64,000 bases of DNA from Ceratobasidium sp. AG-K (taxonomy: Eukaryota > Basidiomycota > Agaricomycetes > Cantharellales > Ceratobasidiaceae): the NCBI GenBank assembly GCA_037039685.1, contig JAWNGF010000013.1, forward strand, positions 269,001 through 333,000, given 5' to 3'. The notes beneath the pieces were generated by a model. The model worked only from the letters and a program-made list of their open reading frames with translations. It was not told the DNA's origin and did not search any database. Positions 4,161 through 55,907 of the stretch are shown here, one piece after another (the first letter of the stretch is position 1; every line of letters starts with the position of its first letter). The position numbers were made by a program, and so were the translations under genes.

Positions 4161-4189
4161 AGTGATGTCGCCTATTTGGTTTGCTTGCT

Positions 4190-6458: not shown

Positions 6459-6590
6459 ATGGACTCCACTGTCGCTTATACTTTCGAGACTGTCGAGACC
6501 GTCGAGACCATCGATGTTTCCCAGCCCTTTGACGCGGCCAAGGGTGACTCCAGCTCCTCAGGCGGAGGAGGTGGCTGCGTCATCGCCTGA
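6459..6590 (+). CDS. Putative mating-pheromone precursor, class A (CaaX peptide)
   Basis: This is a 43-residue peptide with no intron. It begins MDSTVAYTFETVETVETI and ends GGGGGCVIA before TGA. The C-terminal CVIA is a CaaX box with a small last residue, which predicts farnesylation of the Cys, removal of VIA and carboxymethylation. Basidiomycete lipopeptide pheromones are made from such short MD-starting precursors. The usual Glu-Arg-type cleavage pair is not evident, and the predicted mature part (SQPFDAAKGDSSSSGGGGGC or shorter) is unusually Gly/Ser-rich. The product is the same as the copies at 33771 and 32220. It could instead be another prenylated small peptide. No receptor gene is seen nearby. 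Confidence 0.7.
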   Translation: MDSTVAYTFETVETVETIDVSQPFDAAKGDSSSSGGGGGCVIA

Positions 6591-6793
6591 GCGAGTGCAA
6601 GACTCGCATCCCAACCTATCTGCTTCTGTTTACCAGGGAAATTTTCGTTCTCGCCCTGCTGTATCCATTTGTTCTGTAGTAACTATGAGTAGCTTGTATG
6701 TAATACCGGTTTTGTACAGTATAGCTATGGTGTAATAGACAAGACCTAGTGTTTGGTCGATCATGTTCCAGTTTGGGTGATACTACTATCGAG

Positions 6794-7157
6794 CTGACGA
6801 CTGGAGATTTTCTACAAACTATTAACCAAATGAAAGAATCCTCCAGGGCAATCTCATCGCCTGAACAGTTTGCCGGTTAGAATGGTTCAGGAACACGCAG
6901 TTTCATTCAGCTGGTCAATTTTTGAAGACTCGTGGGACAGTTGCGATTTGTGTATCGGTATCACACTTCACTTGCAATTCTTAGTGCCGGTTCAGCCTTG
7001 CCTCTGAAGTCGGTGTGCGTGTGGTTTTTTTTTTTATCTGTCAATCGAATAGAGATTACAGGACAAGAGTCGCTGTGCCATGTATATTCGTAAGAGGGAC
7101 CAATATTCCATGGGGATGGAGTGTTGAGACGAGCCTTCCGATTGCTCCAATGGCACC
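6794..7157. other. Intergenic, nothing recognised
   Basis: I see no gene or repeat that I can support between the end of the pheromone module and the start of the diverged direct repeats. It contains a T-run near 7025. Confidence 0.5.
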
Positions 7158-7843
7158 GTGGAGGCTAAGTGTGCTGAATCTTAGCCATATCAACGCCAAA
7201 AACCCATGACTTAAATTACTGGGCGTGTCCGTGTTCAGTCACTGATGTGCTGAAGATTATCTTCAGGAGTAACTCGGGGGCAAATAAGCTCCAGGGCCTA
7301 TTCAATTTTACCTTTTATGGTGCCAATGACAGCCACCATGCGCAAGATGCATGAAAAACAATGTAATATCTCACTGAAAGCGGAGATTTTCGGTTCACTG
7401 CATTTGCTAATGTTATTCAGTAACCCGAGATCCCATAGTGTGGTTGAACAAATGCCCTAGTTTTGTGGTTGTAGGCGAAGCTTAACCCTTATTATCTTGG
7501 GACGTATGCTCCGATCATTGATCAAAGTGCATTTGTGTGAGTGCCCAGAAACAATATACACTGTGGAGGCTAAGCACACTGAATTCCAACCACACCAGCA
7601 CTGAGAACTCATGGCTTGAATCACTAGATGTGTCCGCTTTCAGTGACCGGTGCGCTGAAGATTATCTTTGGGAGTGACTGGGGGGCCAAATTAGCCCCAC
7701 AAACTAATCAAATCCCCCCTTTATGGTACTGACGACCGCAAACCATGCGCAAAGTGACTGAAAATGATGAATCCATCACTGAAAGCGGCCATTTTCGGTT
7801 CAGTGCATTTGCTGATGTTATTCAGTAACCAGACCCCACAGTG
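7158..7843. repeat. Pair of diverged direct repeats of about 280 bases
   Basis: Copy 1 (7158-7440) and copy 2 (7563-7843) both begin GTGGAGGCTAAG. Both contain GCTGAAGATTATCTT and the word CACTGAAAGCGG. Both then run through TTTTCGGTTCA and GTTATTCAGTAACC to a final AGTG. They look like an old tandem duplication or two copies of one non-autonomous element. No coding capacity is seen. Confidence 0.65.
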
Positions 7844-7946
7844 ATATCTTCATACATGTGAACAATTTCATGCAAGGAGCAAGGAGCCAGCTTGGGGCAC
7901 CGCCAAGTGGCACAGTGTAGGAAGGAGACAGTTAGGGAGGTCGGTG

Positions 7947-8180
7947 TGTTGGAACTTGTTGGGAGGTCAGGGGGAGGGCGACCGCCATTAGGCGGTTGTA
8001 ACTGGGATCAGCGGGAGGAGGGGGGATGCGCCTGACCCCCAAGTGACCCGTATAAATGCGTGCCAGGTCATGCGGACGGTGTGGAGGTGGTGGGCCAGCA
8101 CGTCGGGCCAGGTATACAGGGGTTGGGTCGCTTAGGAGGAACTTTACCACTTACTTTTGTATAATATCTTACCTGATATA
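7947..8180. repeat. Possible LTR fragment
   Basis: The segment opens TGTTGGAACTTGTTGGG. It includes a TATA-like TATAAAT about 110 bases in (near 8050) and a T-rich TTTTGTATAATATC near its end, the layout of an LTR promoter. The fold-back element inserts at 8179-8181, so the original right end is not clear. No matching second copy was found in the window. Confidence 0.3.
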
Positions 8181-24385: not shown

Positions 24386-24390
24386 GATTC
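24386..24390. other. Empty copia target site
   Basis: GATTC here (GAATC on the other strand) is the unoccupied form of the site where the copia element sits at 52526. To the right it matches 52240-52525 inverted, and to the left it matches 5139-6050 inverted. Confidence 0.7.
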
Positions 24391-27019: not shown

Positions 27020-27618
27020 GATTACGAAGGAAACTTGCAATAGGAAGCGAAGGGGAAAAGTGTGAGGGATGGTGAGTAGTGCTGAGGTCTGCTGGGTGAT
27101 TTTATATGACACTGTTCCTGGATCACGATAAGGACAACTTGAAACCCATTATACATGATCAGATTGCAGGTCAATGCCCTGCTGGCTTGGACAGCGCCGC
27201 GATACGGCAAGGATTCGTGCGCCATAGCCTAACTGGTAATCATGTTACGAGCGTGGGAGAGTCTTTGAAACGGGTATCATAAGCCCGTCCAAGTGGCACT
27301 GCTCATCATTCAATCGGCGCCAAACACATGATCACTCGAGTGAATTGCACTGGCGGATCGAGCCTCGACCTGGCGAATGATTATCATAAGCTTATCCACA
27401 CGAAATCTATTGAGTCATTTGTTTCTGCTTGCCGATGTGGTAATGCACCGAGAGTTTAAATGATGTTTGGGAAGATGGGAGCCGTCCTCGGCGTTCTTAT
27501 AAACCTGCAGTAGCCGATGAATGCAGTTGAGCTTCCTTCATATACGAAATTGTTCCCTCACCAGTTTTTCGTGTGAAATGCCGCCCCGCCTGAGTCGTTT
27601 GTGGGGGTCTGATGTGTG

Positions 27619-27864
27619 CTCGCTCTACCAAAAACGAGAAATCTCGTTTAGCTCGGGAGGTCTCATAATGCCAGGGACAATCTCGGCAGTCTCCGGAACG
27701 CTCGGGATAGCCCCGAAGCGCTCAGGAGACCAACGAGCAAAAGGCTCGTTTCGGCTCGTAACACCTCGTGAGCACTCACGAGCTGTCACGAGCTCGACGA
27801 GAAAGTCCCAGCCATTACGAGAGCTTGCAACCCAAACGACATTTTTGATATTTGGTAGAGCGAG
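27619..27864. mobile_element. Small inverted-repeat element (MITE-like) with CTCG/CGAG motifs
   Basis: The ends are inverted copies: CTCGCTCTACCAAA at the left and TTTGGTAGAGCGAG at the right. The 246-base interior is dense in CTCG, CGAG and GCTCGTGAGC-like words that could fold. No coding. The mirrored copy is at 49023-49268. Confidence 0.6.
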
Positions 27865-29702
27865 GCAATCCCGCTCATCAGTAAAGCACACGGTAATACT
27901 GCAGCCGATTGACTCTCATAAAGGAGGCAAAGATTCTTAGCAAATAAGAGACATAGGTCAGGTTAATGACAGACAGAGCAGTAGGCATTATATGCACGTT
28001 CGTGTATCGTCCCTAGGATCTTCGGTCATCGCATTCTAAGTGCAATTCAATGTGGAAGCATACACCGGATAAGTAGGATCATTCTATGCGGAATCCCATA
28101 ATCCTGAGCACCGGTCGAAGCCCATTCCGCTCAAGGTCATTTGGTTGATCGATACGCAATGCGCACATGGCCGCAATCCTGATAGGAGTGCATTCATTGC
28201 GCGAGAGATGTTTGCTTCCCCTCCAGGAATTTGATGTACCCCTAGTTAACTGGCAACGCCAACAGTTCCAACCCTCTCGTGCGTCTCTGTTGTTCTGGAG
28301 TTTGCTTTGTTGGCGGACCGCCCGCTGCATGTATGGAATCAATGAACCCAATGGTGCGCAATTACATACTTACCCTGGTGTTCTTCTCTGCAATTGCCCA
28401 TACTTGTCGCGGAATCTTGGTGGATGGCTGTGTATCTCATGGATGCCATTCTCTGAGTTTAGCCAAGATGCGTGATGTGCACCAGGCGAGCCAGCCTCGA
28501 GATCGACAGCTGATCTCCTCTAAATCCAATTAAGTTACAAGTTTACGCCTGGGTTGCGAAACGTCCACGCCTCCCTGCGCTGCGCGCTTCAATTTTACGG
28601 AAATAGATGCGCACTTAGGTCTGATCATACAGGTAGCAGGGTAGCACTCAACAGTCTATTCCCAAAAGAAAAACCCCACTCGATTTAGGCACCGAAGCGC
28701 TCGAACTTTTGAAAGAGCTTGAGTTGGTCTTCGGTCCTTCCCACCCGAGTACCCTACCAGATACCGCTCTCCCAGCGCTTAGACGCCTGAGCGGTGTACA
28801 TCTGAACACGTGGGGAGATAGCACCGTGACAGCTGTAACGTGGCTAGGGTGCAGCATGGATGAGAAGTGGATACCACGTGATAGGATTACTCCCTCTATA
28901 TCTCTCCAAAATGTTGATATTACAGCTTGGGGGCTCGCAGGCGCCACGAATAACAGGAAACCTCTCTTCTTGTGCAATTTTAGCTCATTTTTACTAGCAG
29001 GATGCTGAGAAAACCACTGTCACGTGATACCCGAACTTATCCGCGGATGGTCCATGCTACTCCCTAAACGTGGCCCACGGCGGTGTGTTTTAGTCACGTG
29101 TCGGTTTAGTCCTCCGTCTGGAAGCGCTTTCTCAGACTGGCTAGCTAAGCTGCCTCAAGAGGTGCAAAGATGCCAGGTTCTCTCTCATGCCTACTCCCTC
29201 TGGGTGAGATTCTGGATTTAGTCTAGACCGAGGCGCGTAACTATTAACCTTGTGAGCCGTATGGAGACAAGGTGCCTCCGGTCGGGGTGTGAACCCAGAT
29301 GCCCACTGCTGGACGGGGTACAGGCCTCAATGGGTAATTTTGATGAGCGCTTGGGAGTGCTGCTGCGCTCAAGGCTAGGCTATTCGCACCAACACGCGCC
29401 TCACTGCTTCAACTCGGAACAGGCGAGGTCACGGCCGCAGCAGAATTCAACTAGTTTATTGATGTTTGATCAAGAGATGACTATCTTGTAACTGACCTTC
29501 TGTCTCACTTACCCAAATGTATGCCTTTGGTAAGTCAGTGGTCGAGAGGACTGGTTCGGTCCTGAGCGCTCGGCAAGTTAACAGCGCCACATACACAGTT
29601 CCTGAGTACAAAGCGTGGTCGGAAAGAGCCGGTAGGAAATAAATCTCCGTCCTGCTCTATCAGAAACGTTCACGGACAGGCGCCCGGAGCCGGCGGGGTG
29701 AT
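27865..29702. other. Arm sequence with a possible gene fragment
   Basis: Most of this stretch has no supported gene. At 28660-28860 the + strand reads LDLGTEALELLKELELVFG and then TLPDTALPALRRLSGVHLNT. This has a leucine-rich, F-box/LRR-like flavour and could be a gene fragment. The frame then runs into non-coding-looking sequence. It is mirrored near 48030-48230. Confidence 0.3.
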
Positions 29703-30247
29703 CATTGGGTGCGGCCTCGTAGTGGTCAGATGGCCAGTTGGTCAGATGAGCACTAGTCAGATCCTAAGGTGCAATTAATTTCCATGGAATTGCCTGAATT
29801 TGTCAGTGAAGCATACAACCGACGCGTGACATTCCGCAACCTACCCATATACAAGTATAAATATCCAAAGCGAGGTTAGGTCTCATCGTATGAGTGCGAC
29901 TGGATATATCCTCAAACCCTGGATCTATTTCTGGCCTCGCACCGGAAAGCACGAAGTGACTAAAACTCACATCAGCCGACTCAAGCAAATCCGTCGGTTC
30001 TCTTTTGGGCTCATGAGCGCCGATTTACTTGTGCGTGCTCGCTTAGGTATAGGAGCACAAATTGCACAGCCACTTGGGTGCTCCTGAGTGCTCCTTTACC
30101 CAAGCGAGCACGTATGAGCAAACCGGCGCTCGTTAGCGTCTGAGGATTTTGGTGACGGAGTGTTGGGTCGGATGCAAGTGTCCGCTATCTAACCAGTGCT
30201 CTATCTGACCAGCTGACCAACTGACCGCTGCGGGGCCACACCCATTG
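29703..30247. mobile_element. MITE-like element with long imperfect terminal inverted repeats
   Basis: The left end CATTGGGTGCGGCC and the inverted right end CAATGGGTGTGGCC continue inward as GTCAGTTGGTCAG and AGCACTGGTTAGAT-like blocks. A second, internal hairpin of about 43-base arms (AGCGCCGATTTACTTG... against its imperfect inverse) lies at about 30013-30130. Non-coding. The mirror copy is at 46640-47184. Confidence 0.6.
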
Positions 30248-30595
30248 CAACGCGACAGAATTTGGTACCGATTGTATTATGAAGCTGGCGCTCTCGAGGC
30301 ATTTCTCGCCAATCCCATAAGCTATATAGACTTGAGAGAGCGGTCATGGGCATTTGGTCGAGTCGTTACCATCTTTTGATGAGTGCCCGCATTTGTTCAG
30401 GCAGAGGTCGACACAGCAGCGGGATCCTACGGCAAGAAGATTTTTTTTGAAGAATCTTTTGCCATGTAATGAATAAGGAAAGGGGGGATACGTTACCGGG
30501 AATACAGGAGCACAGCGTTGAGATCATGCCGTGATTACCCACAATGCACAAAGCCAACTTGACTGAATGCAACTCTAACTAAGCACATATTAGAG

Positions 30596-30642
30596 AGTTT
30601 CTGCACAACTGATTTCCGGAGGAAACCAATCGTGCAGAAACT
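30596..30642. repeat. 47-base near-perfect hairpin
   Basis: AGTTTCTGCAC at one end is exactly inverted as GTGCAGAAACT at the other, with an imperfect inner stem around TTTCCGGAGGAAA. The mirror copy is at 46242-46288. It could be a transcription terminator-like stem, a tiny MITE or a protein site. Confidence 0.5.
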
Positions 30643-32019
30643 GTCTATTGGCCTCTCGAATTGGTGAGGAGATTGAGGAAGTAGCATTCATCTCGCCCCC
30701 GGTATATTCGCTTGGAACAAACGGCAGTGCTACGTGTCCTCCACAACCGCGAGATACTAGGCATTGTCATTGAGCAAGGCAAGAGTCTTAGACCCTATTA
30801 AAATTGTCCTCCCACGATTGCCAAGTCATTGAACAACGTCGGTTGCTCAGATCCGAGGCCACACATCGGGATTGGCACAATCACTGGGGGCCCCAGTGGA
30901 TGTTTTTCTACTATAATATGCAGTTCGAGAGACTACCCACTACGTTTTTAGTACGCCGGGTGTAGAGTAATCTGTCGGGCGGGGGTAACAAAGCCGGTGG
31001 ATGGAGGCATAACCGTAGGCGTGGTGCTTATGGCATGCTAACTATTTGGCTAGTACATTTCTTTACATGGGTACCGAGACAAACGAGACAAGATGCTGTA
31101 AAGCCATGATAGCATATGTAGTCGTGTAAAATCCATCAGATGCAATAAAAAGGTCAATGCAAAACCGTTATTTAGCGTCAGTCAGGCATTATCCCCCGCA
31201 AGGTACAACGTTTCCGCGCCAAGGACTACCGAATGAGCGCTGTAGACGAATGCCTTGGTGAGTGGCCCTGCCGTCCCACCGGCACTTCCGCCATCAGTAG
31301 GGTAAGTAGTCAGTACAGCGGGTACAAGCTTACGAGCATGTCGTAGCGAAGCAGAAATGAAAGCTAACTACATGCGTTACCGGTACACCAATATCAAATT
31401 GTTCTCCGGTCCACTTTCCGTTATTTGACAGATACAATGCGGTTGGAACTTAAAACTTCCTTTCGTACTTGGCATTGTCGGCACAAAGAACAACGTAAAA
31501 GCGCGATTAAAGCCCGTTGCACTTAGCATTGAATTTACACGCCAATGCGTGCAAAGGAACAGCGACAATAGTAATATTTGCCTTGTGTGCTCGAGAATGA
31601 GCACGTTAGGCCCTGCTTGTTCCAATTTGACTGTTAATCAACGAGTACTGGAACGTCGGCAGCTGGCGGTGGTCTTCCAAAATATTTGGGATAAGCACTT
31701 TTCCCTCATAGTGATTTCGGCCGTCAGGTAAAATTCTTTCATCTTGGCAAATGCAATGAGAGCGCTCTTTGCTCGGTACGCAAATGATAACTCAGCGACC
31801 ACCGCCTTGTTGTCAATGATTCGGCTTTTATTTATGGAACGGAGCCACAGCGGCCAAGATAGTCGAAACACGCTTCGCTCTCCAACGATTGTTTATATAT
31901 TGGTCAGTTGAACGGAACTTCGTATTCATGGTTATAACTTTTGTTACCGACGAACGGATTGGGTTCAATGCGCCTTCGGTAATTAGCTCTCAGTCGATCT
32001 GCAATTGGCGGCTCGATAG
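30643..32019. other. Arm end and junction, no supported gene
   Basis: Only short frames that are mirrored in the other arm are seen. The near-identity with the right arm ends at 31974 (CGCC), and the class A pheromone module copy 3 begins soon after. Confidence 0.45.
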
Positions 32020-32219
32020 TAGTAGAGTATCACCCAAACTGGAACATGATCGACCAAACACTAGGTCTTGTCTATTACACCATAGCTATACTGTACAAAG
32101 CCGATATTACATACAAGCTACTCATAGCTACTACAGAACAAATGGATCCAGCAGGGCGAGAACGAAAATTTCCCTGGTAAACAGAAGCATATAGGTTGGG
32201 GTGCGAGTCTTGCGCTCGC

Positions 32220-32351
32220 TCAGGCGATGACGCAGCCGCCTCCTCCGCCTGAGGAGCTGGAGTCACCCTTGGCCGCGTCAAAGGGCTGGGAAACATCGAT
32301 GGTCTCGACGGTCTCGACAGTCTCGAAAGTATAAGCGACGGTGGAGTCCAT
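32220..32351 (-). CDS. Putative mating-pheromone precursor, class A, copy 3
   Basis: A 43-residue peptide starting at ATG 32351, MDSTVAYTFETVETVETI..., ending GGGGGCVIA. By eye it is the same protein as at 6459 and 33771. The module (about 32020-32527) is inverted relative to copy 2, so the pair forms a palindrome centred near 33061. Its upstream part is cut at about 32527. The TATA-like box is kept, but the CTATTGTTC motif found in the other copies is lost, so expression may differ. Confidence 0.7.
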   Translation of the reverse strand: MDSTVAYTFETVETVETIDVSQPFDAAKGDSSSSGGGGGCVIA

Positions 32352-32446
32352 TGGGTAGTAAGTGGGTAGACGAAGGGAGAGGTTGGTGCGAATGAAGGCG
32401 GATGAGAGTGTGCGCTGTAGTGCAGAACGAGGATCGCTCGAGCCTC

Positions 32447-32454
32447 ATTTTATG
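32447..32454 (-). promoter_or_regulatory. TATA-like box of class A copy 3
   Basis: CATAAAAT on the minus strand, about 103 bases before the start at 32351, in the same context as copies 1 and 2. Confidence 0.5.
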
Positions 32455-32639
32455 GTCGACTCGAGGCGGAGCACTACTTTGTGCGACTCCGCCCAGTCGT
32501 TTGTCGAGTGCTCACAATTACAACCACCCGTGGTTCATCCCTGGTTTGACTGTTGCGGCTCTTCCCTTGACGCGGATTAACAGGACTGCTATAAACAGTA
32601 GCCGCGATAGCAACTGATTGTCCTATACGGTCACGGCGC

Positions 32640-32705
32640 ACGCGGCCGATTGTTCACTCCCACGTGGTCGTTAAGCTCGACGTCCAAAGCTCATCAAGCG
32701 CCTGT
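32640..32705 (+). promoter_or_regulatory. Relic pheromone-type promoter without a gene
   Basis: This stretch matches 34285-34345, the promoter of the class B gene. It has CGATTGTTCA in place of CTATTGTTCA, then CGTGG, then GACGTCCAAAGCTCATCA followed by GCGC. No CaaX peptide follows on the + strand, so it looks like a decayed seventh copy. Confidence 0.45.
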
Positions 32706-32727
32706 GCAAGTTCCAGTTGGTGCTTTG

Positions 32728-33126
32728 TTATAAGGGTTTCGTGCCTGATTCCTTGGGCATAAGCATGAACAACATATGCTCATGCTCGTTCACTTTCCTG
32801 GCGTTTTGCTCCAACTGTTTCACATCGTTCAAAGGGACTTGGGCAATTATCTGTTCGCATCACTCAGCCCCCTTTACTCGTTTGTCAGACAACCAATGGT
32901 GCATTCGCAAAGGCCATCTCAACACTTCATCCCCACTGAATATTCGCCTTTCATATGAATATACGCTGTACTGCGACTCTTGTACTATAATCGTTATTCC
33001 TTTGGGAGATAATACACTTACGTATACACTAACTCTTAAGACGGAGACCGATACATACCGACACGCCAAACCGCAACTTAGTTCATTGAATTGCCATGCG
33101 CCACCATCCGAGTTGCTGTATTCCAC
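32728..33126 (-). pseudogene. Possible coding remnant of unknown family
   Basis: The minus strand gives a plausible protein-like stretch split by a likely short intron: NSDGGAWQFNELSCGLACR, then ITIIVQESQYSVYSYERRIF and LRWPLRMHHWLSDKRVKGAE. A TGA at about 32860 interrupts it. The same frame continues IIAQVPLNDVKQLEQNARK and stops at TAA 32728. I do not recognise it. It could be a degraded gene. Confidence 0.3.
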
Positions 33127-33502
33127 GTCGAATCATTTGGTTCCAACTCATGGCGGGCTAATGGATATTTTACACTATCGAATCCTCCTTATGCTGATGA
33201 GGCGGTCCAGATATTTCGAGCATCTCGAGACTCGACGCCAGTGAGCCTCCACGATTCATGTATGCATTTGTCTGGTCAACAGAACAATAAGAACAGGCAT
33301 TCCTCACAATGAGGACGACAAGTCGACCAATGTGATACCCCAGCTGATAAACTATGGCCACACCGGTGCCTTGGGCGGAACCAAATCCACAAACCGGCAC
33401 AATCGGATGTGACTGGGATATTTTGATCCTCACGGTACTTGCCGTGCCCGGACCACTGTCACTGGCCGGCTAGCTGACACGATCAGAAGACGCATATAGA
33501 GT

Positions 33503-33675
33503 CTATTGTTCAGTCTTGCTTGGCTCCGTGTCCGGGGCTCATTCTCTGCCTCTCTCACGCGGATCGTCACAGAGGGACAAGGCATGGACTACCGCCGGTT
33601 GTGATTGCGAGCACTCGACAAACGACTGGGCGGAGTCGCACAAAGTAGTGCTCCGCCTCGAGTCGACCATAAAAT
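33503..33675 (+). promoter_or_regulatory. Promoter of class A copy 2
   Basis: CTATTGTTC at 33503-33511 (268 bases before the start codon) and CATAAAAT at 33668-33675 (103 bases before), as in copy 1. Confidence 0.55.
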
Positions 33676-33770
33676 GAGGCTCGAGCGATCCTCGTTCTGC
33701 ACTACAGCGCACACTCTCATCCGCCTTCATTCGCACCAACCTCTCCCTTCGTCTACCCACTTACTACCCA

Positions 33771-33902
33771 ATGGACTCCACCGTCGCTTATACTTTCGAG
33801 ACTGTCGAGACCGTCGAGACCATCGATGTTTCCCAGCCCTTTGACGCGGCCAAGGGTGACTCCAGCTCCTCAGGCGGAGGAGGCGGCTGCGTCATCGCCT
33901 GA
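33771..33902 (+). CDS. Putative mating-pheromone precursor, class A, copy 2
   Basis: This 43-residue peptide is intact from ATG 33771 to TGA 33902 and ends in the CaaX box CVIA. The residues read the same as at 6459, and the few base differences I saw are silent (for example ACT to ACC at codon 4 and GGT to GGC near the end). That points to recent duplication or to constraint on the peptide. It lies about 660 bases upstream of the class B gene, on the same strand. Confidence 0.72.
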   Translation: MDSTVAYTFETVETVETIDVSQPFDAAKGDSSSSGGGGGCVIA

Positions 33903-34291
33903 GCGAGCGCAAGACTCGCACCCCAACCTATATGCTTCTGTTTACCAGGGAAATTTTCGTTCTCGCCCTGCTGGATCCATTTGTTCTGTAGTAGCTATGA
34001 GTAGCTTGTATGTAATATCGGCTTTGTACAGTATAGCTATGGTGTAATAGACAAGACCTAGTGTTTGGTCGATCATGTTCCAGTTTGGGTGATACTCTAC
34101 TACTATCGAGTCGCCAAGTTCAGATCGTCTAGGAGCGTATGAGATCAAACTTAATTTCTAGGTACTGTATTATTTGAGACAAGGCTCGCAGAAGCCATGG
34201 CAAGCATTCTGGGCCTCGTCGGTGGTCACTCGCCATACAGTGTGGTAGATGACTGACCGATCGGCATGTGATTACGTAATGCACGTTTGAT

Positions 34292-34465
34292 CTATTGTTC
34301 AGTCTCGCGTGGCCAATGAGTCCGACGTCCAAAGCTCATCAGGCGCTGTTCCCCACATGAGCCATCACAGGGGGAACAATGCAAGGTATTCCTTACCCGT
34401 CTATTGTCGTTCTGGGAAGACTCGTGCTGCACCGAGCGATTGCCCGGTGTGCGTCCAGTATAAAT
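34292..34465 (+). promoter_or_regulatory. Promoter of the class B pheromone-type gene
   Basis: CTATTGTTC at 34292-34300 (272 bases before the start codon), then GACGTCCAAAGCTCATCA, and a clear TATAAAT at 34459-34465 (105 bases before). Confidence 0.6.
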
Positions 34466-34563
34466 CCCAGCGCGATTCGTGCTTGATCTGCACTAAACAG
34501 CGCACTCTCATCCGCCTGCTAACGCACCTAGTCCTACTACCCTACCCACCTACTACTATACTC

Positions 34564-34683
34564 ATGGACTCTTCCATCGCTTACACTTTCGAGGCCGTCG
34601 AGGCCATCGAGGCTTCCCAACCCTTTGACGCGGCCCAGGGCGACAGCAGCGGAACACCCGGAGGCGCCTGCGTCATCGCCTAG
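34564..34683 (+). CDS. Putative mating-pheromone precursor, class B
   Basis: A 39-residue peptide, MDSSIAYTFEAVEAIEAS at the N-terminus and GGACVIA at the C-terminus before TAG. The start (MDSSIAYTFEAVE) is shared with class C, and the middle (SQPFDAA.GDSS) with class A, so it bridges the two. The CaaX box predicts farnesylation. The last residues before the Cys (DSSGTPGGA) differ from class A, as expected if classes signal to different receptors. That specificity is inference. The protein was seen only once in the window. Confidence 0.7.
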   Translation: MDSSIAYTFEAVEAIEASQPFDAAQGDSSGTPGGACVIA

Positions 34684-34730
34684 GCGCGCACTACTCGCCC
34701 ACACTTGTGCGGGCGCCGAGGCGCGAGCAC

Positions 34731-34790
34731 ATACCCACCCATACCTACCCATACCTACCCACCCGGACCTACCCGCGCTACCCACCTAAA
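34731..34790 (+). repeat. TACCCACC-type short tandem repeat
   Basis: Eight-base units close to TACCCACC, TACCCATA and CTACCC recur in the 3' flank of the class B gene. It is a small, impure minisatellite. Confidence 0.55.
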
Positions 34791-34799
34791 ACCCTCTAT

Positions 34800-35629
34800 T
34801 TCTTTCTTTTTTGGGCTATTTCGTTCTCAGCCTGTTGTACGCATCATGACCATATCCTGTACCATCGATGTTGTATTATTCATTAATGGATTAAATTTGA
34901 ATGTGTAATAAGTTGGCTTCTTTCAATGGGACGGGGAAGTGTTTGCATGAGATCGAGAAGTGTATTGCGCATGAGATCGGGAAGTGGTTTCGTTCGTGCG
35001 ATCGGACGTCGAGCGATCATCTATTGTTAGACCCTGTGTTCCATTTGATCATGGGTATTGTCCCGATTGATCGTCAAACATGACCAATCTTTGGCGTGGG
35101 CGGTTAATTGTTCCTCGATTGCATCACAGAGGCCGCGGTGGGCGTGAATTTGATTGTGAGTTCCCGGATTGCTTGGAATCATCCATAGATTGGAAGGTAA
35201 TATCGGTAGAACTCTATCTATACATGAAGCCATTGTCCCCCTAAGAGAATGGCGGGCCTGTCACAACATATGACTGTGAACAGCTCGGGCCGTTGTCAAA
35301 GTCGCAAGTCACTCTTATCTAAACATTTTGTTCGTCCCCCCCACAACGGTGCCTATTGTCGACCTGGCCACTGACCTGACTCCGGCAATTGTGCGAGTCA
35401 TACATGAGATTAATACAGGATTAGCCTCTGCTTCAGAGCACGTACTCCGACAAACCTTGCCGTGGCACCCGTTATTGTAAATGACACGCTAGCATCAAAC
35501 TCGTTGAGCAGTGTAGCCAGGAATGTATGATTAGCGAATTTCTATTAACCACCAGAAGTACAACCCCTTCATAGTTATAGGAATACGTTAGATGATATCT
35601 CTCCCTCCAAATTTAATGAATAAGCCAAC
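34800..35629. other. Intergenic, nothing recognised
   Basis: No supported gene. A minus-strand frame (about 35525-35400, NHTFLATLLNEFDASVSF) reads plausibly but cannot be joined in frame to the gene upstream. Confidence 0.4.
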
Positions 35630-35986
35630 TTACCAGACACAAAGTACACGATATAGCTCTTTAACTCTCTGGGACGTGGTTGGCTTCTCCAGCTTGATTT
35701 CAACGTCCTCAAAACCCAGGGCCGGTTCCAAGCGCGCGAGCAACAAGTCTGACCGTGGGTCCGTTCGGTTAAATCAAGATACAGCTGAGTGGTGCTACAT
35801 ACTCACATCAATAATTGTGAACTCTTCTGGATCATCGTGTTGCGTTGGACCGGGGCGAGACAGTATACGAATGCTAACCAATGTATTTTCGTCTCTGTCA
35901 CTGAGTCCTTGGGTGAAATCTGGGCTTGGAAGGGCACGACCCGACCCCAACAATAGATTCACCTCGCTGATTTTATTCTCCGCCAT
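35630..35986 (-). CDS. Hypothetical 100-residue protein, two exons
   Basis: I do not recognise the family. The model is exon 1 35986-35803, a 54-base intron (donor GTATGT, acceptor CAG) and exon 2 35748-35630 ending TAA. The exon lengths (184 and 119) sum to an exact 101 codons. The protein starts MAENKISEVNLLLGSGRAL. It contains DFTQGLSDRDENTLVSIRIL across the middle and EEFTIIDVNLLLARLEPALG across the splice, and ends VKELYRVLCVW. An acceptor (CTTCCAG) further upstream at about 36036 leaves open a longer 5' end. The joined frame reads well across the intron, which is the main support. Confidence 0.45.
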
Positions 35987-36288
35987 ACCTATGGTAGACA
36001 CTGGTCCAGGATCATTGGACCTGTAGAGAGCCACTGGAAGTATAGGCGAGAATTAGTAAAACGAACACAGCGTTTCCAGCTCAACCCGGGTCTCATTGAT
36101 CGAGGCCGTCGAGAGTGTGGACCTTACGCTTGCAGGTTCAGCGCCTGCATTGTAGTAAGCGCTCAAGAATGACCCAAGCTAATACCTATACATGTCAAAA
36201 CTTAAGTTTGTTTGCCACCATCCTGAAGTTCACATTTAACGATAGCTGCTGGCCGTATAATGATTCAATGGCTACATAATCGTCTCGT

Positions 36289-38434
36289 TCATGCCTGTCC
36301 CGAGCTTAGCTTCTCGATCCACTCCACGCTCTTTCCCACCACCGTCAGATTCTCGCAGCCTGTCTCGGTAATAGCCAGGACGTCTTCAATGCGAACTCCG
36401 CCCACGCTCTCGTACTTAGCCAACACCTCGTGATCAATAAACGGCGAGCTGCGCACGGGGGCAAGGAGGTGAGGTGAGAAATAGATGCCTGGCTCGACGG
36501 TCTGGATAGGACAATTAACAGATGCGATCAAGGATATTTGGAACGACAAACCAAAACCATGCCCGTGGCAAGCGGAAGTCGTAGTCGGAGGTAGCGGTAA
36601 TAAGAAGGATGATCAGCGCTCTCCACTGGAATTGTTACATTGGGCCCCAGAGATAACAATGATCCTGTAGCGGTGACTGGTTCTGGCTTGGAGGCGGAAG
36701 GCACATCGTGAACATCAAGTCCAAGTGAATGACCAACGCCGTGCGGGAAGAATGCACTGGAAACCTCCGAGTTGATAATATCCGACTCTGGTGGAAACGA
36801 ATCGCACTTAGTGGGCAAGGCAAAGAAGTCGGCATTGTATGCGCACTTTTGCCTTTGAAAATACCGAGCCTCAGGAACCCATCAATTAATGTCAGATGGC
36901 ACTGGAGTTGTACCGTATCCCTACGAGTTGTTATAATAGGTTAGCGCATGAAGTTAGGCTCAAAGTTGTTGAGATTGAGACGCACCAATGCAGCCCAGGC
37001 TTCAGTGAATCGATAGCTTCGTTTTGCATCTTGAGAACTAGCTCATAGATTTCGCGTGCCTCAGGGGTAAATCTTCCTCCGTTCCCAACCTGTATAGCAG
37101 GTAAGATCATTGATAAGAACAAATAAGTTGCTTGGGATGACCTACGGGTGTGGTACGCGTAACTCCAGTTGCAATCACGAGTCAATGGTAATAATCAGGG
37201 AAACAATGCACTCACTATCTGAGGCGTAATTCCTCCATTCGCATCCTGCATCCAGTAACAAGACCTGGGCTGCAAGGGTAGGTCCGTTCTCGTGACCATT
37301 CGTGATGCCGTTGTGGGCGTGACCGTGTCCATTAATGGGTTCAGTTGCCAAGTCTTGACGGCCAGCATTAATCGGACCCCAGGCGAACGCACGATCGTTG
37401 CAACAATAATGCAGAGTGGCAGCATGCATTGCGGAAGCAACGATTGGCATATACGCTTGATGCACAGCACTGTCTCGGGCGCTTTGAGACCCCAGAAATT
37501 ATCAAAAATAAGGTGCTCACCCTTCACGCCGACAGCTTGCAACAAACACAGCTTCCGCCTCGGCCTCTTTCTCGATCCTCCACTGGCTAGGCATCACGGC
37601 CGAAGTGACCTTGCTGGTGCTCACCTTTCCTCCTACTTCCTTTTGGTCCTTCCCGAGCACCCGCATGATAACTTCGTGAGCACGGGATGAAATGGCATTA
37701 GCCTCTCGAATGAGTTCAATTTCATATGGTGTTTTGATAAGTCGCGCGGCGTGGAGCGCGGGCAGAAGATACCGAATCGATGGTGGCGACGTCAATCCCG
37801 CGGGAGAGGTAGCCAACGCGGCGAGAAGCGTCGCTGGGATATTTGGGAATAATGCCGTCTGGGGAAGGATGTGTACGAGAGGTGCTCCAGCGTTCTGTAC
37901 GGCGGTTGCAACATGTGTTTGTAGTTCGTCCGTATACGCAATATTATCAGATTGGTGGGTCTCGTGCGCAGCTTCCAGTGTAGGTGGCGGTGGGGACCAC
38001 ATGGTTTCTAACGGGTCTTCGCGGGGGATAAAGAGCGTAGATTGGCTGACCGGGCCAGTATTTCCGCTCGATCCGGGAGGAGAAAAAGTAATTACCAGGT
38101 GCGAATTGGCCACATCACATCCGGTTAAGTAGAAAAAGTTGGATTCTTGACGCAAAGGCAGCTCGCGGTCAGTATCGTTGCGGAAAGGTGTGGTCGATCC
38201 AGATAGAATCATAACATGGGTCTATCGAAGAGTAATAAGTGGATCAGCTCGAATTGGTCCTGTATGTGGCGACGTTGAAACCTGGATCTTACCTTAACGC
38301 GATCTGCATCTGGCAGAATTCTAAGTAAGTGCTCGATGGTTTTCGCGACGTGAATGCGCGCTAAATAGATCCAAGCATAAGAGTCCAAAAATTCAAAACG
38401 AAGAGTGATCAATACCTGGATATACCCCATCCAT
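36289..38434 (-). CDS. Xaa-Pro aminopeptidase (M24B metallopeptidase)
   Basis: The enzyme removes an N-terminal residue that precedes proline, using two metal ions. The start is taken at ATG 38434 (MDGVYPG), followed after introns by [19 protein letters not shown]. The AMP_N domain then reads [20 protein letters not shown] and [19 protein letters not shown] (about 38210-38080). The catalytic pita-bread domain shows its metal ligands in order: [12 protein letters not shown] (about 37210-37260) leading to [20 protein letters not shown] (about 36710-36750), [10 protein letters not shown] (about 36465-36500) and [15 protein letters not shown] (about 36350-36400). It ends SSGQA at TGA 36289. About seven short introns interrupt it. 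It is a normal-looking housekeeping gene lying in the single-copy core between the inverted-repeat arms. The upstream frame is open past 38434, so a longer N-terminus cannot be excluded. Confidence 0.85.
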
Positions 38435-38974
38435 GGTTTTCGGCAAGTTGGCAGTAATAATATGTCTCGAAAGACTCGAGGTTCGAAGGGAAGGAACTGC
38501 TCTTGGCCGCACACAAGAAGAGAGAGGGTGGCCGAAAGTTTTCGAGGAGACGGCTGAAAGGCTTACAAGGCGATGACCAACGCCCACAAGTTTGTATCCC
38601 TCACGTTGATGGCAGTCAGAGCTCAGCAACTGGCAAGGCAATTGGCAAGCAGGAAAATATTGAGCGAATCGGACGTTCACACCCAAGAAGCGGGGGTTAG
38701 ATGGACCCTTCGAGTAGATTATATTGAATTCGAGACCAGTACACTTGCTGTGGTTGTGCGTGAGCCAAGTAACTTGATAGGGGCAGGATCAAGCGGAACA
38801 TCGTCACGTGGGACCAAGATCCATCCGCTAAGCGCCCGCCTGGAAACGAAGGGCCTTCGTTGCTTGCGACCTGAATAACGAGCTACATAGTACAACAGCA
38901 AGGATTTCCATTATTCCATCAAATATGCATCCAAACGACGAAAATACAATAACCAAGGCCTCTGAATCTACCCC

Positions 38975-41127
38975 TCACTGAATTGGCAGCACAACACGCC
39001 GAGAATTCACATAGTCCTCCCAGCTCACTGCATCTCCATTGGCAGCTACACCATGCCACATATGGTCCAGGACAGCACAAAACTCGACTCCTCGCAGGAT
39101 CCATACACGGATTCCTCGGAATGATTCAAGTTTGTCTCGTACAAATGCTCGTTGCCTTTCTGAGCAAGCAGCAATCCCGGCCTATGGAGCGTTTGGTCAG
39201 TAATTCCGAAAAGAGGTAAAAAGGTGACTTACAATCAGACAGGGGATAGAAAAATGGACGTTGACAAAGGTTTCGGCCGTTGGGCCCATCAATTGGATGA
39301 TCTGCCGCACAGACGATTGCACTCGAGGGTCATGTGAGTTCACCCTGCACATGCCCTACACGCGCTCTCAGTAGAGCAGTCGATTCCAAAACACATACAA
39401 CACACACCATGTATATATAAATCAACGTTGCGTGCCTCCAGCTCTCTTGCACCGCCACCCTTTCAACCGTCCTGACCGAATCATCATCCACAAGTTTCTC
39501 CATCTCCGGCTTCCATGCCATAGTCCTCAGCTCCAGCACCGGCCAGTCCTCCTCGTTAGGCAGTCCAGGGTGAGAAGTCCGCCAAGCGTGCACCTGCGCA
39601 AGACTGATGAGCAATTCGGCCGGCACGCCATGGTACCATTCGAATAGTGTAGGTTTCTCAGGAACGACCGGAAAGTCGCTCGAGTCGTATTCTCCAAGTG
39701 GCGGGACGCCAAGTACGAGTGCACATATGGTGTCGTAAAACACAAAACGACGAATTTGGTATCGGGGCGCCTCGAGCGCGCGGGGGAGTGAGATGCGGAG
39801 GATGCCTCGTTGTTCGGACCACAGCTCGGGCTCAGTAGATACCATCTGGAGAAAAATCGGCAGGGAGCGCTGAAGGAGGAGATAGCTCGCAACTGTACTA
39901 ATTACCACAGATTTAAGGAATACCAGCTATTGCGGAGATAGTTAGTATCAGTGCAACGGTACTGTCGTTGAACCCACCTCGAGCAATCCGCACAATATAT
40001 CCTCCATCACATTCATTGGTTGGTTTGAAGAAGGGTTCTGGGTAAACTCATAATCAACCCTATCAGCCCAACGGATACAAGCTTGAATGGTCGTATTCTG
40101 TGTCTTGTCTGTGAGTGCCCGAAAGATCCGAGTTCCAAGGTACACGAAACGCAAGATAGTTTGAGATCGGGTTACGAGCCAGACCATGTGGTCAATTTGT
40201 GCTTCGGTGGGCCGCTTAAAATAGTGGCTTCCCCTTGCGAGCTCGTCTGAAGGAAGATTAAGGGCTGCCTCTTAATATAGACATGAGAAACCCACATTCT
40301 TTCAAGCTGAATGAGAGGTAGCTATCCCTCATTTGAGCGTTTGCGTTTACTGGCCGTGGGATCGATCGCTGAAGCAACCCCAGGGCATTGCCCATCTCTT
40401 GCATCGCGTCCAAGGTTTCCGGCGACAAATTTCGTCTCCGGGACACATGAGCTACCGGGACCACGAATCTTGGCCTTGTGAGGTTGCCCAATTGAGCTTG
40501 TGGCCACGTTTTATCGTATTTATCCCTCGATGGACGCAAGGTCGAATCTTCGTCAGAGCGAGACACAGCTAAGGCCTGTTGAGATGAGGGGCCTTGATCT
40601 ACCGAGCCCACAGCCAAAATAGAGTGGCTCAAGACTCCATGAAAACTAAGAGGATCGAGAGGATTCGCCAAGAGACTGCCAAATGAGACTTCGTGTTCTG
40701 GGGTATTGGCCGAGGACCCCGACGGGGCCACATCAGTCAACTGGAACTTCGGTTGGGCAAGCTCGGACACGATATCAACGACATACCACGGTCACTGGTC
40801 TAGTAGGTTTCGGGAGAATCGATCTAATTCTCCCCAAATTCGGGGTTTGTTGACTCTCCGGGCGATCACTTGGCTTTGTCATATCCTCCGCCGCACGAAT
40901 GGCACGCTCAATCCGGGGCTCTTCATTATCATAGCCAAGGCAATCGAAGTTGCCCTTGGCACACCGTTCACACACGGGGCGGACTCTGTCGCATTTCTTT
41001 CCCCTACGAGACAACACTCGAGTTGCGGGTAAGCCAAACGATGCTCGAGGGAAGGCAAGACGCACCTTTGGCGACAGGTAAGGCAGCTTAACCCTCGGGG
41101 AGCGAGTGAAGTTTTGTGAATCGGCAT
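38975..41127 (-). CDS. Zn2Cys6 fungal transcription factor
   Basis: A DNA-binding regulator. From ATG 41127 (MPIHKTSLAPRG), the zinc cluster has the spacing C-x2-C-x6-C-x6-C-x2-C-x6-C. It reads SCLTCRQ, then after an intron KKCDRVRPVCERCAKGNFDC and LGYD (about 41090-40940). A linker rich in Ser, Pro and Gln follows. Next is a long C-terminal region of the Fungal_trans_2 type: WLVTRSQTILRFVYLGTRIF, FVFYDTICALVLGVPPLG, EWYHGVPAELLISLAQVHAW, then ESWRHATLIYIYM (about 39430), and a final stretch ending SRRVVLPIQ at TGA 38975. Several short introns are needed. Divergence from the peptidase gene is about 540 bases. Targets cannot be told from sequence. Confidence 0.85.
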
Positions 41128-41639
41128 AAAGCACCTGATTTTGCGATTGCGTCGTTGAAGGGGTCAATCAGTCTCGAGAGCCGGAAGCAAGTTGAGTCGT
41201 TGGATCGAAGTCAGTGTCAAATACCTCAGCGTCTAAATCAATTTGCAAAACGAAGTGGACAAGGCACTGCCCAAGGACATCCGGCTACATGCAGTATTGG
41301 GTATCCAACCGTAATCGAAGGTGCTCCGAGATCGCATGTAAGATTATTTAAAGTAATAGTACGCATGACCTCCAAAAAGATTAATCCAACAATTAAGTAG
41401 ATCAAGTGCGTTAGGCTAGCGCCCGAAGTTTGTTTAACGGCGACGATCGCGTGAACGGGCTCGTCTTTCCCTACGCACCAGTATGAGTAGCCAGTACCTT
41501 GTAGATTGATGTTTCATCAGTAGCACGCGTCGCTCAAGTAGCGTATACGCATGTTGAAATGCAGTTCCAGGATATTCAAACCTGAAAGATATCCTAGTCG
41601 TGGTCGCGAGTAAAGTGAACGGAATGAGGAAATCATGCG
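41128..41639. other. Upstream region of the Zn2Cys6 gene
   Basis: Nothing coding is supported here. It is the promoter side of the regulator and ends where diverged palindrome homology begins (about 41640). Confidence 0.4.
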
Positions 41640-42029
41640 GCGGTGTTCAATCCTTCAAGCGATAGTTACTGCCAGACGTACTCTCAGGTTCTTTCTCGCA
41701 TTAATACCAAGGTCAACCAGACTCGACTTTGAGGCTCATGAGCCATGTATATATGGTTACATTAATTTACTCCGACCGAGAGAGGTACCCGCAAATGTGG
41801 TTGCCCTACAATCGAAGGTCATCGCCCGGGATCTGAGTAGGCGGAGGTCGTGTCCGGTAGATCACTTCCTGCTGCTCACTACTCTGCTCTCCTGGGTATC
41901 CTCGACTCTAGAACCTCCCCGCACTCGGCCAAATCCGAACACGAACGTTGCACACCAGACTCCGACTTACGATAATCATCGATCTTATACAGCCCTGATG
42001 TTACATACATGTGTTCCGAGTAGTGCAGA
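41640..42029. repeat. Diverged outer flank of the small palindrome
   Basis: Recognisably the reverse complement of 44515-44905 (shared blocks such as TAATACCAAGG and GACCGAGAGA) but with many changes, unlike the identical core that begins at 42030. Confidence 0.55.
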
Positions 42030-42119
42030 CATAATCCATACAACAGGGTAAGAACGAAAAAGCAAAACCCTGTGAGAACGAAACGAAAAGGGTGCATGTG
42101 TAGGTGGGTTTGTACGCGT

Positions 42120-42233
42120 CTAGGCGATCACGCAGCTGCCTCCAGAGCCGCTGCCGCCTCCGGCACCGCCGTCCATGTCAACGGGCTGGGAGACCTCAAC
42201 AGCCTCGAAAGTGTAAGCGATAGAAGAATCCAT
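42120..42233 (-). CDS. Putative mating-pheromone precursor, class C, left copy
   Basis: A 37-residue peptide from ATG 42233, MDSSIAYTFEAVEVSQPV at the N-terminus and GGSCVIA at the C-terminus before TAG. The region before the CaaX Cys is a Gly/Ser run, longer than in classes A and B. The C-terminal CVIA predicts farnesylation. It is identical in protein to the mirrored gene at 44311. The two genes point away from the palindrome centre. Confidence 0.7.
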   Translation of the reverse strand: MDSSIAYTFEAVEVSQPVDMDGGAGGGSGSGGSCVIA

Positions 42234-42322
42234 GAGTAGTGTAGTAGGTGGGTAGAAGTAATGTGTGAGAAGGCAGATGAGAGTGCGTTCGCTACTGCAG
42301 AATGAGCATCGTTCGAGTCGAG

Positions 42323-42466
42323 ATTTATAGTCGACTTGGGTCTACCTCGCGCAGTGTGTCTCGTTGAGGAATGACCATACGCCGTGGTCTCGAGTATGTA
42401 TTGTTCTAGGGCCATGTCGATGACCACTGGACCTCAAGCTCAATAGCTCGGCAATATGGAACAATA
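42323..42466 (-). promoter_or_regulatory. Promoter of class C left copy
   Basis: On the minus strand TATAAAT lies at 42329-42323 and CTATTGTTC at 42466-42458, about 96 and 233 bases before the start. Confidence 0.6.
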
Positions 42467-44076
42467 GATTAGCAGGCAAACCACACGCTAACTATTTTGA
42501 GCGCCACCCCGATTCAGGCATGTCGAAGCGCCACGACGCACGCGAGCAAATTGGCCGTATTTGATTATCTTGACGATCACCTGGTCGATTTCGGGTACAT
42601 CCTGGTTCTCGCTGAGGAAATGCCATCCATCAGTTATGGTCGTCCATTCCATTGAACAACGAAGCCATTGATACTCTTCAATTGCGGTATGTTTGGTTTC
42701 GTATTAGTCGAAAGCATGGGAACATTGTAGATCGAAACCTCGTAACACGTTTGAGTAGAGCATCAAAGTCATTCAGGCACTACAATAAGAGCGAAACCAC
42801 ACCGTACTTCGTCTTGTCTTCTTCACTCCCAAGCGCCCCATTAGGAATTGCAGTCAACTTGGTTCCACCCAACGCAAGCTACTTCTTGATCGCCTTCTTG
42901 TCCCGAACGACGTCAGTGTATTGGGGAGCATTAACCTCCTAGGAGAGGACCAGTATAAGATCTCGGCGGATGTTTGTGGAAATAGCGTACCTCCTGCTGC
43001 GTCTTGTTCGTCAAATGAACCGGCCAGGTGGAATTAGGTCCGCACAACGGGGGATAGGTTTGAGACGCCTAGTGGAACGGGTAAGTCATATGAGTAGAAC
43101 GTGAACAGCGGGCGAGTACCAGCTGGTGAAGCGCTAGCGGTTCACTTTCTAACTGTTCGATTCCAGGTGAGATGAGGAAGCAAGTATAACCGAGTATGGT
43201 TTACATTATGAGACTCAATTTTTCACGTGGCCAAGTGTTTTCTGACTAAATGCTCAATAGCTCTGTAGGTACAGACTTTAAAAGTATAAATAAATGCGTA
43301 GATAACACTATGGATGCGGGACTATTGAATGAGTACTCAAGCGTTCGACCCGCGTTGAAAACGGATGAGGTATCGATAAAACAACCTCAAGGGATCACAT
43401 GGCCAATTTGCTCGCGTGCAGCTGGTACTCGCCCGCTGTTCACGTTCTACTCATATGACTTACCCGTTCCACTAGGCGTCTCAAACCTATCCCCCGTTGT
43501 GCGGACCTAATTCCACCTGGCCGGTTCATTTGACGAACAAGACGCAGCAGGAGGTACGCTATTTCCACAAACATCCGCCGAGATCTTATACTGGTCCTCT
43601 CCTAGGAGGTTAATGCTCCCCAATACACTGACGTCGTTCGGGACAAGAAGGCGATCAAGAAGTAGCTTGCGTTGGGTGGAACCAAGTTGACTGCAATTCC
43701 TAATGGGGCGCTTGGGAGTGAAGAAGACAAGACGAAGTACGGTGTGGTTTCGCTCTTATTGTAGTGCCTGAATGACTTTGATGCTCTACTCAAACGTGTT
43801 ACGAGGTTTCGATCTACAATGTTCCCATGCTTTCGACTAATACGAAACCAAACATACCGCAATTGAAGAGTATCAATGGCTTCGTTGTTCAATGGAATGG
43901 ACGACCATAACTGATGGATGGCATTTCCTCAGCGAGAACCAGGATGTACCCGAAATCGACCAGGTGATCGTCAAGATAATCAAATACGGCCAATTTGCTC
44001 GCGTGCGTCGTGGCGCTTCGACATGCCTGAATCGGGGTGGCGCTCAAAATAGTTAGCGTGTGGTTTGCCTGCTAAT

Positions 44077-44221
44077 CTATTGTTCCATATTGCCGAGCTA
44101 TTGAGCTTGAGGTCCAGTGGTCATCGACATGGCCCTAGAACAATACATACTCGAGACCACGGCGTATGGTCATTCCTCAACGAGACACACTGCGCGAGGT
44201 AGACCCAAGTCGACTATAAAT
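44077..44221 (+). promoter_or_regulatory. Promoter of class C right copy
   Basis: CTATTGTTC at 44077-44085 (234 bases before the start) and TATAAAT at 44215-44221 (96 bases before). It mirrors the left copy exactly. Confidence 0.6.
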
Positions 44222-44310
44222 CTCGACTCGAACGATGCTCATTCTGCAGTAGCGAACGCACTCTCATCTGCCTTCTCACACATTACTTCTACCCACCTAC
44301 TACACTACTC

Positions 44311-44424
44311 ATGGATTCTTCTATCGCTTACACTTTCGAGGCTGTTGAGGTCTCCCAGCCCGTTGACATGGACGGCGGTGCCGGAGGCGGCAGCGGCTCT
44401 GGAGGCAGCTGCGTGATCGCCTAG
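44311..44424 (+). CDS. Putative mating-pheromone precursor, class C, right copy
   Basis: A 37-residue CaaX peptide (MDSSIAYTFEAVEVSQPV ... GGSCVIA, TAG at 44422). It lies in the right arm of the palindrome, with an identical promoter and coding sequence to the copy at 42120. It lies about 490 bases from the inner end of the right giant arm. Confidence 0.7.
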   Translation: MDSSIAYTFEAVEVSQPVDMDGGAGGGSGSGGSCVIA

Positions 44425-55880: not shown

Positions 55881-55907
55881 GAGTCTGTTTGGGGGACCTG
55901 AACGGAC

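Follow-up and report, generated by a model that had tools for sequence, protein, structure and literature searches.

What is the role of a cluster of very short genes that end in a CaaX (farnesylation) box in the basidiomycete Ceratobasidium sp. AG-K, and does such a cluster determine mating type? The genes lie in a stretch of 64,000 nucleotides of contig JAWNGF010000013.1 (assembly GCA_037039685.1), which as a whole we call the window (C13:269001-333000; the 53.6-Mb genome is assembled in 17 contigs, here C1–C17). Judged by their sequence, the six encoded peptides are very probably pheromone-like lipopeptide precursors, and the cluster is probably not a classical pheromone/receptor (P/R, or B) mating-type locus. 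For the case as a whole, we regard as likely an amplified, receptor-unlinked family of pheromone-like lipopeptide genes, which would share a common ancestor with a receptor-linked gene.

A six-frame scan of open reading frames (ORFs) bears out the original prediction in its coordinates and strands, and in its division of the genes into three classes (three A, one B, two C; Table 1). All six ORFs start with MDS and end in CVIA followed by a stop codon; the three class A peptides are identical to one another, as are the two class C peptides. The window holds 46 ORFs that end in Cys plus three residues, among which exactly these six have the form MD...CVIA. In 200 first-order Markov sequences of the window's length, MD...C-a-a-X ORFs of this size occur 0.1 times on average (maximum 2) and CVIA ORFs do not occur, against six and six observed. 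The precursors thus have the short ORF (about 35–100 residues) with an MD start and a CaaX end that marks pheromones and pheromone-like peptides. Their 37–43 residues are laid out as a conserved leader (MDS..AYTFE.VE..SQP.D), a variable Ser/Gly-rich stretch, and the CVIA box. Five of the six genes are located between the arms of a large palindrome, again as predicted.

The window contains only part of the family. A search of the whole genome with the class B peptide finds 17 members, all within C13:236,426-487,370 and all 17 free of internal stop codons. Two sequence patterns lead to the same set: CVIA followed by a stop is present at 51 places genome-wide (15 in the control), its 17 places on C13 being exactly the precursor family, and the N-terminal pattern MDS[ST]..YT is present at 24 places (4 in the control), comprising the same 17 and seven elsewhere. 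Eight copies belong to class A (two being a 40-residue variant, A-prime, and one having V changed to I), three to class B, and six to class C. Haplotypes left unmerged in the assembly may have raised this number.

The receptor family of fungal pheromones, STE3 (PF02076), gives 117 matches in the genome, of which the 104 strongest merge into 44 clusters on C1, C2, C3, C5–C8, C11, and C13–C15; 35 clusters cover both ends of the model, and at least one (C2:6492418-6495271) merges two genes. Mushrooms usually have a handful of STE3 genes, and 44 clusters is far above that number. Together with the copy number and the palindromic amplification of the precursors, it makes this case unusual. On C2, a CaaX ORF that aligns with the window peptides (MYSSAAYTFDTVQIPQPVYMQGNGGIDSCGIT; C2:3095882-3095980) lies about 0.3 kb from an unbroken, convergent STE3 gene (342 codons by a splice model, 222 bits to PF02076), and through it the family is homologous to a precursor-like gene linked to a receptor. 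The DNA of this relative scores 60 against class C and 54 against class B, where the maxima among 200 shuffles each are 32 and 30. A back-search with its peptide returns the peptide itself and the six class C copies (E 0.012), and a nucleotide search with 721 bp of the gene returns the gene alone. A database of 5.8 billion proteins gave 3335 candidates for the adjacent receptor, of which only one matches at E ≤ 1e-20, a Rhizoctonia solani STE3-like receptor with 40% identity; this match suggests, short of proof, a fungus with affinity to the Ceratobasidiaceae or Cantharellales.

A further connection to receptors is found upstream of the genes. The element GTCCNNNGSTCAT precedes 14 of the 17 copies in the gene's own orientation (window instances in Table 1). 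At the remaining three, all of class A (C13:237207, C13:301220, which is the window gene at 32220-32351, and C13:377488), it runs solely in the reverse direction, which resembles an inversion of a class-B-type promoter piece next to these genes. The C2 gene has both the element and a TATAAA box in common with the cluster, where class A has ATAAA only. The 72-bp piece of the class B promoter that surrounds the element recurs outside C13 at only two places (86% identity, E ≤ 0.1), both on C15, where each lies some 0.9 kb from a copy of the same STE3 gene; with a 111-bp query that holds this block, the genome gives five places at E ≤ 0.1, namely the three B genes and the two C15 STE3 duplicates. 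Regions no more than 1 kb from an STE3 cluster make up about 0.24% of the genome. At C13 473.5 kb the element has no gene behind it, and sites of the HMG type (ACAAAG/ACAATG) have no placement common to all classes.

The original prediction of a candidate mating-pheromone cluster therefore stands for the pheromone-type CaaX precursors, owing to the C2 relative beside STE3 and the class B fragment at the C15 receptor, and is not supported for the mating-type locus. The receptor looked for near the cluster is absent: the whole assembly contains no STE3 match closer than about 740 kb, the sole cluster on C13 being at 1.227 Mb, beyond the last copy. This is the first of the two outcomes named in advance as refuting the prediction, no receptor or mating-type gene close by, and it applies to the cluster. 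The locus thus lacks the receptor gene of a P/R locus and, without a linked receptor, probably does not determine mating type. Other linkages were considered and set aside. Homeobox_KN, the homeobox model searched, has matches on C4 and C9 only, and ICMT, which is linked in Boletales, has matches on C1 and C4 only. C15 was considered at 1.163 Mb as the possible site of a canonical P/R locus, in analogy to chromosome 15 of Rhizoctonia, and was also rejected: the STE3 match is limited to an N-terminal part, and a further 3 kb or so of flank on either side contains no pheromone-like CaaX ORF (one ORF of 20 residues). We note that five equal-scoring Homeobox_KN matches fall in two places on C4 (3149-3159 kb and 3529-3546 kb), which recalls the HD locus of Rhizoctonia, reported as duplicated (PMC7884421).

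In the maturation scheme that we favor, the Cys of the box would be farnesylated, VIA removed, the new carboxyl terminus methylated, and the leader cleaved near the last acidic residue. The products would be three kinds of Gly-rich lipopeptides of 9–13 residues, with putative farnesylated and methyl-esterified tails of the types SSSSGGGGGC, SSGTPGGAC, and GGAGGGSGSGGSC, and would act on STE3-type receptors encoded elsewhere. The relative beside STE3 on C2 and the promoter relic beside STE3 on C15 suggest common ancestry with a receptor-linked pheromone-like gene, from which segmental and palindromic duplication on C13 would have produced the 17 copies of the assembly. Purifying selection would have preserved their reading frames, probably with help from gene conversion among them. 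The cluster would more likely deliver, at high dose, a signal that is of the non-mating-type kind or independent of mating type, of the sort proposed for Agaricus bisporus, whose pheromone-like genes are also unlinked.

Several observations weigh against this explanation. The Pfam Pheromone model (PF08015) matches neither this genome nor any of the control genomes; hmmscan of four of the six ORFs returns no pheromone model, class C giving only a chance-level match to IATP (E 0.086); and a search of 5.8 billion proteins with class A, or with an alignment of A/A-prime/B/C, yields no homologue. None of the dipeptides ER, DR, EH, NH, EE, or DE is present 10–15 residues before the Cys in classes A, B, and C, where charged residues occur singly, and we use the wording pheromone-like because of this absence. 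Such a charged dipeptide is described as usual, not invariable; Rvphb3.2 as printed in PMC5473757 is also without one at that place, although an ER motif is attributed there to the precursors of that study. The Ser/Gly tails would be poor material for receptor specificity. The C2 relative begins with MY rather than MD, ends in CGIT, and may be decaying, and the DNA of class A does not score above shuffles against it (28 versus 30). The reading of STE3 loci for precursors covered the flanks of only 26 of the 44 clusters, mostly 1.5 kb either side of the match, and among the loci scanned with an aliphatic CaaX filter the C2 peptide alone is convincing; we discounted an ORF of 47 residues, starting with MD and ending in CSET, that runs antisense to the receptors on C5. 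Taken alone, the upstream element shows no excess outside C13 (36 places, three of which are the C2 and C15 places, versus 41 for the reversed control genome-wide), and it is absent from the 292–400 bp checked before the precursor genes on C3, C4, C7, and C9 described below. Finally, identity within a class can stem from recent duplication or conversion.

This last point bears on whether the peptide is under selection. Counted by hand, the variable sites within classes A and C comprise six synonymous and two non-synonymous ones, plus one in-frame indel of 9 bp. Against an expected non-synonymous share of 0.76, this synonymous bias has a binomial P of 0.003, a value that presumes independent sites and fails if copies convert each other. 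The ratio dN/dS ranges from 0.32 to 0.81 over the nine between-class and C2-gene pairs with both types of change; class A compared with A-prime has no synonymous difference. The class C copies C13:311120 and C13:389361 differ at 3 of 114 coding positions (all synonymous), versus 26 of 244 upstream and 70 of 241 downstream (Fisher P 0.011 and 3e-10 for coding against either flank). However, C13:311120 and C13:487257 differ at none of 246 upstream positions and at 3 of 114 coding positions, which speaks against selection inferred from the contrast with the flanks. Upstream and downstream divergences of class A copies also vary independently, from 0 to 60 of about 250 sites, the minus-strand class A gene of the window having 60 differences in 250 upstream bases relative to C13:275459. 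The copies are mosaics, and contrasts between flank and coding sequence alone are therefore no proof of selection. We nevertheless favor the interpretation that the peptide is under purifying selection and that conversion contributes to the identity, as supported but not proven, because all 17 frames are open, the within-class changes are biased toward synonymous ones, and dN/dS is 0.32–0.81.

The 7.6-kb arms of the large palindrome are 98.9% identical, with three ungapped blocks of 1.5–3.5 kb listed at 100%, and enclose a center of 12.9 kb in which two smaller inverted repeats carry a divergent class A pair and the class C pair. Related sequence at C13 370 kb consists of pieces about 88–99.8% identical, and the 100% blocks between the window arms, compared with this more diverged relative, fit arm-to-arm gene conversion or later formation of the palindrome. 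The core block, which contains one class A gene, the B gene, and both C genes, has a second copy about 75 kb away (C13 about 377.3-388.6 kb) with 99.5% identity. A fragment of an M24 metallopeptidase gene between the A/B and C genes is, as far as can be seen, a passenger in this block. Duplication is not confined to C13: the STE3 blocks on C5 recur at a constant offset of 519.1–519.2 kb, and those on C15, as well as two of three compared pairs on C8, are mirror-symmetric, from which we conclude that the assembly contains large duplicated segments. These blocks on C5, C8, and C15 could be large segmental duplications or unmerged haplotypes.

Precursors of the same general form are also encoded on other chromosomes. 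The CVIA pattern has 34 places outside C13, of which six end in TGG instead of a stop and were dropped; reading the other 28 as uninterrupted ORFs, with introns left aside, gives five MD...CVIA precursors. Two of them resemble the window family, on C3 (MDSTVTYTAEPVYIDEPTDIIGGRKIRHGDGNCVIA) and C4 (MDSSTTYYTFEITQVTEPVDMEKASPNDRPSCVIA): the start-codon DNA of the C3 gene scores above 100 shuffles against A, B, and C, and that of the C4 gene against C. The other three (C4:3916602, C7:723852, and C9:236906; e.g., VERGGGSGGSGQSCVIA) form a second family, in which a Gly-rich tail and CVIA follow ER, AR, or DR, and which is a better fit to the published non-mating-type consensus than the window genes are. 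No STE3 cluster coincides with any of the five. The seven MDS-pattern places outside C13 include the C3 and C4 genes; those on C1 and C10 are not precursors, and three are out of frame (two on C9, one on C12). Ten distinct precursors, when aligned, have M, one P, C, and I without exception, and almost always D2, S3, and the box residues V and A.

Among known systems, the closest likeness is to the non-mating-type pheromone-like genes of A. bisporus and other species, which, as described in PMC8305134 and PMC4101180, share the short MD-start CaaX form, a Gly-rich predicted mature part, and mutual resemblance. The four precursor genes described in A. bisporus encode Gly-rich mature parts and are on different chromosomes from the receptors; three of them are similar to non-mating-type peptides known from Coprinopsis (GGGSGNGAYC) and from Laccaria (GGGSGNNAYC), and the precursors were suggested to be able to activate STE3.2 independently of mating (PMC8305134). 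Three of the four unlinked A. bisporus genes flank a transposon-rich island. For Pycnoporus, three precursors are described as differing strongly from one another, a trait typical of mating-type ones, and four as mutually similar, like presumed non-mating-type ones (PMC4101180). The C13 family differs from the A. bisporus type in its 17 assembled copies within palindromes, its AYTFE leader, the lack of a listed charged dipeptide, and a receptor-linked relative on another chromosome; its tails are Gly/Ser-rich, yet without the GGGSGNGAYC or GGGSGNNAYC motif, to which the C4, C7, and C9 genes are closer. The C13 cluster is probably an amplified receptor-unlinked family, closest to these non-mating-type pheromone-like genes.

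As in Cryptococcus, for which PMC12510652 describes up to four divergent MF copies per mating type in the P/R locus and a proposal of gene conversion, near-identical CaaX pheromone genes are arranged as inverted repeats; the Cryptococcus locus, unlike the 17-copy cluster, holds STE3. In Rhizoctonia, which is probably related to the fungus studied here, Mfa is reported to be adjacent to Pra (RhiMfa/RhiPra; PMC7884421), whereas the C13 cluster is without a linked receptor. The precursors of Rhizopogon and other Boletales B loci have the MD start and CaaX end and are reported as often missed by annotation, but are diverse in sequence and close to receptors (PMC5473757). Among the titles and abstract openings listed in a literature search, with subscription journals mostly outside its scope, there is no report of a comparable cluster, and nothing was found for AYTFE or AYTFD together with pheromone.

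Could the cluster nonetheless serve in mating, as the pheromone half of a working B system whose receptors moved to other chromosomes, with the three classes as specificities? The homology to the STE3-linked C2 gene and the promoter relic at the C15 receptor agree with this, and so do the Rhizoctonia Mfa coordinates, whose 120, 123, and 132 nucleotides (39, 40, and 43 codons) equal the lengths of classes B, A-prime, and A, lengths alone being compared (PMC7884421). However, a receptor at least about 740 kb away implies that pheromone and receptor are not co-inherited, and the three classes share one contig with near-identical copies within each, whereas the mating-type precursors described in PMC4101180 are very distinct; we consider a mating role unlikely. 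It is more unlikely still that the peptides are short prenylated proteins other than pheromones, with a functional N-terminus and the Gly/Ser tail as a linker to a farnesyl membrane anchor. Conservation across classes that peaks in the N-terminal half and the CaaX box, with a low-complexity tail in between, is what an anchored protein would give, as is the lack of a canonical cleavage dipeptide in the window peptides, but a conserved leader with a variable mature part is equally expected of paralogous pheromones, the C2 relative lies beside a receptor, and the second CVIA family does have ER, AR, or DR before its Gly-rich tail.

Passive amplification, in which a recent repeat carries the genes along and the number is partly an assembly artefact of two haplotypes on one contig, is compatible with the other readings; we hold it possible, if on balance improbable. 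The 99.5% repeat of the core block, the STE3 blocks at constant offset on C5 and mirrored on C15 and partly on C8 (as unmerged haplotypes could be), and the mosaic coding and flanking sequences all suit it, but the 17 uninterrupted ORFs and the synonymous bias point to selection on the peptide, and passive spread would account for the number of the genes and not for their nature. Beyond the receptor-unlinked pheromone-like family that we prefer, we put forward, as a speculative and rather doubtful extension, that the cluster is a receptor-free, dosage-amplified signaling cluster in which palindromes and conversion hold the many copies of a few Gly-rich pheromone types nearly identical, with ligands that act on the expanded, scattered STE3 set independently of mating type. 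If so, the amplified ligands might, for example, serve self/non-self recognition or hyphal communication rather than mate choice. The question is testable, since ligand and receptor candidates can be named (the 17 copies, the receptor-linked relative, and the 44 STE3 clusters), and pheromone-like genes amplified in palindromes without a receptor bear on the evolution of copy number and of inverted repeats.

Table 1. Precursor genes, upstream elements, and repeats in the window (position 1 is the first nucleotide of the window)
Feature	Position	Strand	Evidence
Class A precursor gene, 43 aa, CVIA	6459..6590	+	six-frame ORF scan, peptide and CVIA searches
Class A precursor gene, 43 aa, CVIA	32220..32351	-	ORF scan, peptide search
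Class A precursor gene, 43 aa, CVIA	33771..33902	+	ORF scan, peptide and CVIA searches
Class B precursor gene, 39 aa, CVIA	34564..34683	+	ORF scan, peptide and CVIA searches
Class C precursor gene, 37 aa, CVIA	42120..42233	-	ORF scan, peptide and CVIA searches
Class C precursor gene, 37 aa, CVIA	44311..44424	+	ORF scan, peptide and CVIA searches
Conserved upstream element GTCCNNNGSTCAT, class A gene (-245)	6214..6226	+	
Same element GTCCNNNGSTCAT, class A gene (-241)	33530..33542	+	
Same element GTCCNNNGSTCAT, class B gene (-237), inside the 72-bp block 34317-34388	34327..34339	+	
Same element GTCCNNNGSTCAT, class C gene (-199)	44112..44124	+	
Same element GTCCNNNGSTCAT, minus-strand class C gene	42420..42432	-	
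Left arm of large inverted repeat (palindrome)	24386..31975		repeat comparison
Right arm of large inverted repeat	44909..52525		repeat comparison
Small inverted repeat with divergent class A pair	31986..34136 (arms 31986-32545, 33577-34136)		
Small inverted repeat with class C pair	41901..44636 (arms 41901-43125, 43419-44636)		
Core block: one class A, the B, and both C genes	33597..44908		
M24 metallopeptidase fragment, between A/B and C genes	36531..36881	-	PF00557, 26.8 bits (cut-off 23)

The palindrome arms share further sequences. An element of 240 bp, present in both (27622-27860 and 49027-49264), matches in both orientations sequence beside the C5 STE3 genes, and weakly sequence on C2 and C11; it looks like a small dispersed inverted-repeat element. 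The ORF pieces at 26103-26495 and 50391-50783, one in each arm, are copies of each other, and two related pieces at 17591-17950 and 21203-21580 have 72–83% nucleotide identity to them or to each other. These pieces, at 17.6, 21.2, 26.1, and 50.4 kb, may be from aquaporin genes; the one piece scanned has no Pfam match. Outside the pheromone core, another inverted repeat at 8178-9599 has 664 bp at 99% complementarity with 94 bp between its arms. The right end of the window (52800-64000), at 45% G+C richer in AT than most of the window, is a retroelement stretch with SH3_Tf2-1 and chromodomain matches at 56240-57655, and a copia-type gag is located near the left end, at 3924-4556.

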